Source of the DNA: Bacilli bacterium
Lineage (GTDB): Bacteria; Bacillota_I; Bacilli_A; ML615J-28; CAG-313
Length of the DNA stretch: 40,763 bases
Assembly: GCA_017501465.1 (NCBI GenBank)
Contig: JAFVWY010000014.1
Span: forward strand, 1-40,763
Direction of reading: 5' to 3'
This document shows, in pieces, positions 12,814-40,745 of the stretch. Every line of letters begins with the position of its first letter. Within the stretch, counting starts at the first letter, position 1. Under the pieces are notes generated by a model, which was given only the letters and a program-made list of their open reading frames with translations, was not told where the DNA came from and did not search any database. Made by a program: the position numbers and the translations under genes.

Positions 12814-12842
12814 TTGACAAAGTCAATAAAATCCTTTAGAAT
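12814..12842 (+). promoter_or_regulatory. Promoter of queT
   Basis: TTGACA (12814-12819), 17-base spacer, TAGAAT (12837-12842), close to consensus. The predicted start of transcription is about 12849, the first base of the riboswitch stem. Confidence 0.85.
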
Positions 12843-12848
12843 TAGAAT

Positions 12849-12894
12849 AATAGATGTTCCTGATAACCATCTATTAAAATAATAAAACAAGGAG
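12849..12894 (+). promoter_or_regulatory. preQ1-I type riboswitch overlapping the queT ribosome site
   Basis: An 8-base-pair P1 stem (12849-12856 with 12868-12875) closes an 11-base loop, TTCCTGATAAC. An A-rich tail follows, ending in AAAACAAGGAG. CCU of the loop can pair with AGG of the tail (CCTG with CAAGG allowing a bulge) to form the H-type pseudoknot typical of preQ1-I aptamers. The loop end (ATAAC) and the tail (AAAACAAGG) closely resemble the Thermoanaerobacter tengcongensis aptamer as I recall it. The tail includes the ribosome site of queT, so ligand binding should hide it and lower QueT synthesis when preQ1 is plentiful. Confidence 0.8.
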
Positions 12895-12899
12895 TTACA

Positions 12900-13388
12900 A
12901 TGAAATCAAACGAATTAACAAAACGCATTTCTTATAATGCGATTATTTGTGCTTTATATGTCGCACTAGTTTTTATTTTCAATTTTATGTCATATGAATC
13001 TATTCAAGTTAGAATAGCAGAAGTATTAATATTCATAGTTTTAATTAATAAAAAATATACTATTGGTATTACTATAGGATGTTTTATTGCTAACCTAATT
13101 GGTCCTTATGGATTAGTAGATGCATTAATAGGATCTTTTGCTACATATTTAAGTTGTGTGATGCTATCAAAAACTAAAATCCCATGGGCTGGTATTTTTA
13201 TTCTACCAATTTGTAATATCTTAGTAGGTTTGGAGATATCATACTTTGCAGGAGCAACATATGAAGCAAGCCTAATCATAATTTCTTTTGTAATGTTAGG
13301 TGAAATCATTACAGGTATCTTAGGTACATTAATTTATAAAGCAATTATTAAGAAACAAAACATCATTGATTTAGTTAATAGAATATAA
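12900..13388 (+). CDS. queT: Queuosine precursor transporter QueT (ECF S component)
   Basis: A 162-residue hydrophobic protein with five or six predicted helices. The stretches IQVRIAEVLIF and GCFIANLIGPYGLVDALIGS match the QueT family (formerly DUF988), substrate-binding subunits of energy-coupling factor transporters that import preQ1 or a related precursor. The shared ECF ATPases and T component are not in the window. The ATG follows an AAGGAG site that forms part of the preQ1 riboswitch, and this regulatory link strongly supports the substrate. Queuosine would modify GUN-anticodon tRNAs, such as the tRNA-Asp(GTC) at 39666. Confidence 0.9.
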   Translation: MKSNELTKRISYNAIICALYVALVFIFNFMSYESIQVRIAEVLIFIVLINKKYTIGITIGCFIANLIGPYGLVDALIGSFATYLSCVMLSKTKIPWAGIFILPICNILVGLEISYFAGATYEASLIIISFVMLGEIITGILGTLIYKAIIKKQNIIDLVNRI

Positions 13389-39586: not shown

Positions 39587-39662
<76 letters not shown>

Positions 39663-39665
39663 AAA

Positions 39666-39742
39666 TGGCGGTCCCAACGAGACTTGAACTCGCGATCTCC
39701 AGTGTGACAGACTGGCATGTTAACCACTACACCATGGGACCA
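39666..39742 (-). tRNA. tRNA-Asp(GTC)
   Basis: Anticodon arm CCAGT-CTGTCAC-ACTGG, acceptor GGTCCCA/TGGGACC, discriminator G, encoded CCA. A GUN anticodon, hence a queuosine substrate. Confidence 0.97.
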
Positions 39743-39748
39743 ATTTTT

Positions 39749-39822
39749 GGTTGCGGAGGAAGGATTTGAACCAACGACCTTCGGGTTATGAGCCCGATGA
39801 GCTACCACTGCTCCACTCCGCG
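39749..39822 (-). tRNA. Initiator tRNA-fMet(CAT)
   Basis: Anticodon arm TCGGG-CTCATAA-CCCGA with the three G-C pairs of initiators, and an unpaired C1-A72 at the acceptor end, which marks the initiator. Encoded ACCA. Confidence 0.97.
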
Positions 39823-39833
39823 ATTTAAAAAAA

Positions 39834-39924
39834 TGGCGGAGAAAGAGGGATTCGAACCCCCGCGGCTGTTACACCCTGTCGGTTTTCAAGACCGATCCCT
39901 TCAGCCAGACTTGGGTATTTCTCC
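39834..39924 (-). tRNA. tRNA-Ser(TGA)
   Basis: Anticodon arm TCGGT-CTTGAAA-ACCGA, a long variable arm as in type II tRNAs, acceptor GGAGAAA/TTTCTCC, discriminator G and encoded CCA. Confidence 0.96.
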
Positions 39925-39951
39925 GTCTAAAAAATAAAAACTTTAAATATA

Positions 39952-40028
39952 TGGTGGACCTTCAGGGACTCGAACCCCGGACCGACCGGTTATGAGCCGG
40001 GAGCTCTAACCAACTGAGCTAAAGGTCC
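39952..40028 (-). tRNA. tRNA-Ile2 (CAT anticodon, lysidine type)
   Basis: Anticodon arm CCCGG-CTCATAA-CCGGT (outer pair mismatched), acceptor GGACCTT/AAGGTCC, encoded ACCA. It reads CAT but differs from both Met tRNAs beside it. Its body resembles the Bacillus tRNA-Ile whose C34 becomes lysidine, and its place between Met and Ser agrees. It could instead be a second elongator tRNA-Met. Confidence 0.85.
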
Positions 40029-40049
40029 ATTTTAAGTCGGTATCATAAT

Positions 40050-40126
40050 TGGTAGCGGCGGAGGGATTTGAACCCCCGACCTTCCGGGTATGAACCGGAC
40101 GCTATAGCCAGCTAAGCTACACCGCC
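40050..40126 (-). tRNA. Elongator tRNA-Met(CAT)
   Basis: Anticodon arm TCCGG-TTCATAC-CCGGA, acceptor GGCGGTG/CGCCGCT with G1-U72, encoded ACCA. Very close to the Bacillus elongator tRNA-Met. Confidence 0.95.
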
Positions 40127-40137
40127 ATATATTAAAA

Positions 40138-40213
40138 TGGTGGATCCAAAGGGATTCGAACCCTCGACCCCCTGCTTGCAAGGCAGGTGCTCTCCCAACT
40201 GAGCTATGGACCC
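40138..40213 (-). tRNA. tRNA-Ala(TGC)
   Basis: Anticodon arm CCTGC-CTTGCAA-GCAGG. The acceptor GGGTCCA/TGGATCC contains the G3-U70 wobble pair that identifies alanine tRNAs. Encoded ACCA. Confidence 0.97.
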
Positions 40214-40222
40214 ACAAAGAAT

Positions 40223-40309
40223 TGGTGCCTAAGGCCGGAATCGAACCGGCACGGTATTGCTACCACAGGATTTTAAGTCCTGCGCGTCTACCTGTTCCGC
40301 CACTCAGGC
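40223..40309 (-). tRNA. tRNA-Leu(TAA)
   Basis: Anticodon arm CAGGA-CTTAAAA-TCCTG, long variable arm, acceptor GCCTGAG/CTTAGGC, encoded ACCA. Confidence 0.96.
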
Positions 40310-40322
40310 ATATATTTTAAAC

Positions 40323-40398
40323 TGGTGTCCCCGAGACGATTCGAACGTCCGACCCACTGATTAAAAGTCAGTTGCTCTACCGGCTGAGCTACGAGGAC
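40323..40398 (-). tRNA. tRNA-Lys(TTT)
   Basis: Anticodon arm ACTGA-CTTTTAA-TCAGT, acceptor GTCCTCG/CGGGGAC, encoded ACCA. A wobble-uridine substrate for MnmE/MnmG. Confidence 0.97.
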
Positions 40399-40403
40399 AA
40401 AAA

Positions 40404-40479
40404 TGGTGCCGACTATAGGAATTGAACCCACAACCTACTGATTACAAGTCAGTTGCTCTACCGATTGAGCTAAGTCGGC
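40404..40479 (-). tRNA. tRNA-Thr(TGT)
   Basis: Anticodon arm ACTGA-CTTGTAA-TCAGT, acceptor GCCGACT/AGTCGGC, encoded ACCA. Confidence 0.97.
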
Positions 40480-40483
40480 ATAA

Positions 40484-40559
40484 TGGTGGAGGATGACGGG
40501 CTCGAACCGCCGACCCTCTGCTTGTAAGGCAGATGCTCTCCCAACTGAGCTAATCCTCC
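40484..40559 (-). tRNA. tRNA-Val(TAC)
   Basis: Anticodon arm TCTGC-CTTACAA-GCAGA, acceptor GGAGGAT/ATCCTCC, encoded ACCA. First tRNA of the array. Confidence 0.97.
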
Positions 40560-40578
40560 AAATATTTATGTCTTCTAT

Positions 40579-40607
40579 ATTATAACACCAATTTAAAATT
40601 TTGTAAA
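40579..40607 (-). promoter_or_regulatory. Internal promoter of the tRNA array
   Basis: Minus strand: TTTACA (40602-40607), 17-base spacer, TATAAT (40579-40584) with an upstream TG, placed between 5S rRNA and tRNA-Val. It would let the tRNAs be made without the rRNA operon promoter. Confidence 0.72.
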
Positions 40608-40637
40608 ATGATTTATTTTTTTAATTTATAGAAAGGA

Positions 40638-40745
40638 GCTGGCAGCTTCCTATTTTAGCTATTTCTAACTATCGTCGGCGTTAAAGTGCTTAACTTCTGT
40701 GTTCGGCATGGGAACAGGTGTGTCCACTTTGCTATCGCCACCAAA
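40638..40745 (-). rRNA. rrf: 5S ribosomal RNA
   Basis: Contains the conserved 5S core (CCTGTTCCCATGCCGAACAC at about 40698-40717, then GAAGTTAAGC). The ends pair: TGGTGGC near the 5' end with GCTGCCA near the 3' end. The ends are set from this helix and could be off by a few bases. It should be the last rRNA of an operon whose 16S and 23S genes lie beyond the right edge. Confidence 0.93.

Follow-up and report, generated by a model that had tools for sequence, protein, structure and literature searches.

Riboswitches of preQ1 class I (preQ1-I) bind preQ1 through a U in loop L1, a C in L2, and an A in L3 (PMC10622847, PMC11625349), and control of queT by members of this class is already known (PMC11625349, PMC12519234). 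Type I elements are marked by UC before the 3′ strand of stem P1 and type II elements by AC; those of type III by UU flanking P1, AC, and a pyrimidine-rich loop that pairs with the AAGG of the Shine-Dalgarno (SD) sequence, as worded in PMC11625349, together with a short loop (9 nt in Escherichia coli) and a host from the Pseudomonadota. The queT leaders of Listeria monocytogenes (type I) and T. tengcongensis (Tte; translational, type II) and the yhhQ leader of E. coli (type III) are the closest described systems, and a construct of 30 nt from the E. coli element binds preQ1 (PMC10622847). QueT and YhhQ/QPTR are unrelated importers of queuosine precursors (PMC11130926).

The window, meaning the whole stretch of DNA that was analyzed (40,763 nt; contig JAFVWY010000014.1, assembly GCA_017501465.1, Bacilli bacterium, CAG-313), contains at positions 12848 to 12894 an element that is very probably a preQ1-I riboswitch acting as a translational OFF switch of queT, with ligand binding, pseudoknot formation, and regulation expected by homology to the described systems. 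A preQ1 riboswitch hiding the queT ribosome site, as in the original prediction, is the best reading of the anatomy, the conservation, the P1 covariation, and the gene context. The element is an ordinary, well-supported member of the preQ1-I class and adds no new class or mechanism.

Anatomy and subtype of the queT leader

All features of the locus are on the plus strand. A 9-bp P1, composed of a 5′ strand at 12848 to 12856 (UAAUAGAUG) and a 3′ strand at 12868 to 12876 (CAUCUAUUA), both indicated by sequence, fold, and covariation, encloses the 11-nt loop UUCCUGAUAAC at 12857 to 12867, as read from the sequence. This loop comprises L1 (UU, 12857 to 12858; from an alignment of 68 relatives and PMC10622847), the 5′ strand of the predicted P2 as a putative anti-SD (CCUG, 12859 to 12862; CCUUG in relatives), and L2 (AUAAC, 12863 to 12867; from the same alignment and PMC11625349). 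The A-rich L3 (AAAUAAUAAAA, 12877 to 12887), the final A of which is invariant in relatives, is followed by CAAGGAG at 12888 to 12894. The predicted P2 3′ strand (CAAGG, 12888 to 12892), assigned from the sequence and the covariation analysis, overlaps the SD sequence AAGGAG (12889 to 12894), which would be the expression platform and ends 5 nt 5′ of the ATG of queT at 12900; the 3′ pseudoknot strand had been proposed to include the ribosome site, and this agrees with it. A P1 hairpin, an A-rich L3, and a P2 formed by the loop and the 3′ tail constitute, as far as the sequence can indicate, the architecture of an H-type pseudoknot. The gene downstream, queT (12900 to 13388), encodes a 162-aa ECF transporter substrate component for a queuosine precursor. 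Its product matches PF06177 (Pfam, 96.3 bits, E = 2.5e-27), and an NCBIfam search with it gave no match.

Upstream of P1, a predicted sigma-70 promoter at 12814 to 12842 (TTGACA at 12814 to 12819, TAGAAT at 12837 to 12842, 17-nt spacer) was indicated by the sequence, the scan, and the relatives, and agrees with the consensus at 11 of 12 positions. The scan of the window for such promoters was at chance level, with 7 found and 6.6 expected. Of 51 related loci, 36 had a TATAAT-like hexamer, defined by at least 5 of 6 bases, that ended 10 to 20 nt 5′ of the loop, compared to 14, 11, and 11 of the loci in control intervals of equal length further upstream. This placement of a −10 motif just 5′ of P1 was found in most close relatives, and in some of the more distant lineages it could not be clearly recognized. 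In the window, the −10 motif ends 5 bases before the 9-bp P1, or 6 bases, the number given in the original prediction, when P1 is counted from 12849. The +1 position may be at or beside the first base of P1 (12848), and the distribution of the hexamers supports the view put forward before that the aptamer would be the extreme 5′ end of the mRNA, in the family of the window and in much of its order.

The minimum free energy (MFE) fold of positions 12848 to 12905 was exactly the P1 hairpin (−7.0 kcal/mol, z = −1.54). This hairpin, taken alone, is only mildly unusual and leaves the SD uncovered. A motif rule (hairpin, UAACC, and AAAC..AGG), which was composed after the motif had been seen, found 1 site in the window and 0 in 200 mononucleotide shuffles. 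The window sequence in isolation is suggestive only, and the significance of the element rests on its conservation.

With respect to the preQ1-I types, AC precedes the P1 3′ strand in the window (A12866-C12867), as in type II, and in all 68 aligned sequences instead of the UC of type I, which excludes type I. The features of type III as worded in the literature are also present: UU flanking P1, AC, and a pyrimidine-rich loop (UUCCUG..AAC) that would pair with the AAGG of the SD (predicted pairs C12859-G12892, C12860-G12891, and U12861-A12890). The short loop and the Pseudomonadota host of type III are not; the loop has 11 nt, and the lineage is Bacilli-type. Judged by the worded criteria of the reviews, the element may be placed between types II and III.

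The element shares with the type II aptamer of T. tengcongensis the AC before P1′, the invariant U after the P1 5′ strand, the A-rich L3, the SD within the pseudoknot, the control of queT, and the G-C pair at the base of P2, and differs from it by the pyrimidine-rich loop. The Tte aptamer has the same CAAGG tail as the window element. With the E. coli yhhQ leader it has in common the UU after P1, the AC before P1′, the pyrimidine-rich loop (UUCC..), an SD AAGG paired by C-G, C-G, and U-A, and a variable A-rich tail; the placement before yhhQ is also found among the relatives of the window. It differs from this leader by the length of the loop (11 nt here and 11 to 16 nt in relatives versus 9 nt, counted from published positions), by a Bacilli/mycoplasma-type lineage instead of Pseudomonadota, and by a location mostly before queT. 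The Listeria switch also acts on translation of a queT leader, but it is of type I with UC and two ligands, whereas AC is found and one ligand is expected here (PMC12519234). The original prediction had counted the element among the smallest possible switches and had emphasized control of an importer rather than of the synthesis genes. The size of about 47 bases and the importer, QueT, stand. The emphasis on smallness does not, since such a size is ordinary for the class, in which 30 nt of the E. coli type III element suffice for binding (PMC10622847), and the emphasis on the importer was overstated, because preQ1-I control of queT was known; small size and importer control are both typical of the preQ1-I class.

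Conservation and recognition by covariance models

The upstream regions of QueT homologues carry the same element, for instance, GGGUG-UUCCUUGCCUAAC-CACCC-UAAUCAAAACAAGGAGG, with named relatives among the Bacilli, Erysipelotrichaceae, and Acholeplasmataceae. Invariant in the 68 aligned sequences were the U after the P1 5′ strand, the AAC before the P1 3′ strand, the first C of this strand, the AAAC in the tail, and GGAG. The pocket bases expected of preQ1-I, U12857, C12867, and A12887, were present and invariant as well (68 of 68). By analogy, C12867 is expected to be the specificity base that pairs with preQ1, and U12857 appears to be the counterpart of the ligand-contacting U. Compensatory changes occurred at five of the six P1 pairs of the alignment (68 sequences). 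In total, 94.9% of the alignment cells were paired, compared to 30 to 64% with slid partners, and 101 cells were doubly changed, compared to 24.8 ± 3.9 in shuffles. The covariation of P2 is thin, as its 3′ strand is constrained by the SD: one compensatory pair, U-A to C-G, was found in 11 sequences, mainly from one clade.

The loop has 11 nt in the window and in its congener (L016/L094), 13 nt in most relatives, and 11 to 16 nt overall. In the genus of the window, CCUG is opposed to CAAGG with one unpaired A, compared to five straight P2 pairs in most relatives. Two species of this genus retain the pocket bases, the long P1, the AAAACAAGG tail, and the promoter spacing, and they differ from each other by a compensatory U-A to A-U change in P1. 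Two other leaders, L127 (480 to 567; G384, before yhhQ) and L034 (about 2313 to 2397, before queT), seem to carry one more hairpin, placed within the A-rich L3 that separates P1 from the SD. Within the same family, the queT of G006 (L018) and the yhhQ of G009 (L129) are importer genes without a recognizable leader of this motif type.

A search with the Rfam model RF00522 had been proposed as a check, with the lack of a covariance hit as an outcome that would speak against a riboswitch. RF00522 did not match the window at the gathering score (cutoff of 39 bits) or, at E ≤ 10, the 171-nt and 56-nt stretches holding the motif, and it yielded only background in the whole genome of the window, with nothing above the cutoff. 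The best RF00522 matches in genus g2 of the same family are located on homologous queT leaders (G004, 27.6 bits; G003, 26.5 bits; G002, 24.9 bits), and about 24 to 26 bits were reached at the leaders of G001, G005, and G013 (genus g6). When 20 further relatives were scanned with 4227 families, 8 of the 14 sub-threshold matches were RF00522 at the motif, making it the commonest family. In L106 (27.8 bits), the only alignment inspected, the model and the motif were aligned over their full length. Its scores at the motif sites of relatives were 23 to 28 bits, and the 39-bit cutoff was reached in no relative tested. This indicates that RF00522 recognizes the leader family but that the cutoff is too strict for it. 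The window site is missed because of the sensitivity and threshold of the model, and a curated cutoff is a database threshold and no biochemical criterion. The adverse outcome was obtained literally with RF00522; it is nevertheless explained by the model threshold, and another covariance model, R1, matches the site. Clostridial queT leaders (L037, about 2935 to 2991; L045, about 1928 to 1981; L040; L052), which have a hairpin like CAGUUCGAAACCAUCCUG with a type I-like UC before P1′, were also not matched by RF00522 at the gathering score.

The 12 sequences from which model R1 was built came from other genera, with the genus of the window excluded. It matched the window site with 41.8 bits (E = 8.4e-9 in the genome), which was the best match in the 1.56-Mb genome, the next best having 27 bits. 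All 34 matches of at least 34.8 bits in the order preceded the gene for a queuosine precursor importer, QueT (31) or YhhQ/Vut_1 (3), and the next match in the order (32.6 bits, G002) was without a QueT or YhhQ gene. Among 392 genomes of the phylum, 41 possessed an R1 match at E ≤ 1e-6, and 39 of these matches precede QueT or YhhQ.

Some R1 matches need separate mention. Two further ones in the genome of the window, C19:14172 and C4:11558 (26 to 27 bits), were rejected as background; no queT or yhhQ homologue is close to either of them, and the former falls in an apparent coding sequence. A 35-bit match in G067 (L128), which is one of the 41 in the phylum, precedes a phosphoglycerate mutase gene and is a false positive, so that the R1 E-values are optimistic near 35 bits. 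Another of the 41, L110 (1501 to 1556; G420), precedes what was judged by eye to be the beginning of a QueT-like frame that is soon interrupted by a stop codon. Its leader is intact, the queT-like frame ends about 30 codons in, and a second frame for a membrane protein goes on from there; this may be a decayed gene or an assembly error under a kept riboswitch.

Gene context, ligand, and mode of action

The motif is located before genes for queuosine precursor transport, queT in the window and queT or yhhQ in all 34 strong matches of the order. It precedes YhhQ (PF02592, also a weak match to TIGR00697, “queuosine precursor transporter”) in G001, G005, and G013, three genomes in which QueT was not found. 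Within the family, queT was present in 10 genomes and yhhQ in 4, without co-occurrence, and the motif preceded yhhQ in 3 of these 4. The motif follows the substrate and not the protein family, which is strong evidence for a queuosine precursor as the ligand.

The genome of the window possesses tgt (551 bits) and queA (453 bits). The search for queC gave only short, weak PP-loop matches, none of them convincing, and queF was not found in this genome or in any family member. Since preQ0 would not be reducible without QueF, preQ1 should be the compound imported and sensed, and the organism would depend on preQ1 import. The queH gene of this genome, outside the window (L141, G000:C6:43860-44383, minus strand), matched in two frames, at profile positions 1 to 65 and 46 to 174, and looks frameshifted; either the assembly is in error here or the gene is broken.

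At low levels of preQ1, the CAAGGAG tail would be free, ribosomes would load at the ATG at 12900, and QueT would import preQ1. Plentiful preQ1 would be held between P1 and P2, paired with C12867 and read on its other edge by U12857 and an adenine of L3, and would lock the CCUG of the loop (12859 to 12862) onto CAAGG (12888 to 12892), so that the SD would be buried and QueT synthesis would stop. No terminator was found between the motif tail and the ATG of queT, an interval too short to hold one, and because the P2 3′ strand is also the ribosome site, control should be translational. Such a mechanism would match that of the known translational preQ1-I switches.

Alternatively, a preQ1-I-like aptamer may repress queT in response to another ligand, such as preQ0, queuine, or another deazapurine. 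The QPTR and QueT families vary in substrate between species (PMC11130926), the type II aptamer of Tte favors preQ1 over preQ0 only 17-fold (PMC10622847), and L2 and the loop are shortened in the genus of the window. Such a shift is nevertheless improbable: imported preQ0 could not become preQ1 in a genome with no queF, the presence of queA indicates that the imported base should be preQ1 and not queuine, and the pocket bases are unchanged. The shortening of the loop by 2 nt might instead weaken P2 to the extent that the leader is a degraded, non-functional remnant in this genus and queT is expressed constitutively. An imperfect P2 in addition to the shorter loop in both the window and the congener, and the missing RF00522 score, would fit such a decay; it is very improbable, however, considering that two species of the genus keep the pocket bases, the long P1 with its compensatory difference, the tail, and the promoter spacing, and that a short L2 is also present in the functional Tte aptamer.

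A ligand-free hairpin or thermosensor that sequesters the SD, a protein-binding leader, or a chance arrangement should be considered as well, because simple hairpins that precede an SD occur commonly in AT-rich genomes and the promoter scan and the fold z-score are weak by themselves. P1 alone does not reach the SD, though, and the invariant unpaired loop bases and the use before two importers that are unrelated but share a substrate class point to a metabolite, which renders these explanations extremely improbable. Repression of queT by preQ1 continues to be the preferred reading.

The new points are modest. Rfam misses the window copy and the related copies tested, the clade mixes hallmarks of types II and III, and it uses one switch type for two unrelated importers. 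The preQ1 importers of many uncultured, salvage-dependent Bacilli-type bacteria would carry a preQ1-I switch missed by current Rfam annotation. These leaders offer compact natural sequences in which the pseudoknot strand is nearly the whole ribosome site. It is possible, albeit doubtful, that the motif represents an undescribed preQ1-I subtype, which combines a ceiling as in type II (a basal G-C pair in P2) with complete burial of the SD as in type III, escapes Rfam, is interchangeable before queT and yhhQ, and occurs widely among gut Bacilli and mycoplasma-like lineages. Elsewhere in the window, at 39590 to 40745 on the minus strand, a 5S rRNA gene and eleven tRNA genes are arranged in a row.
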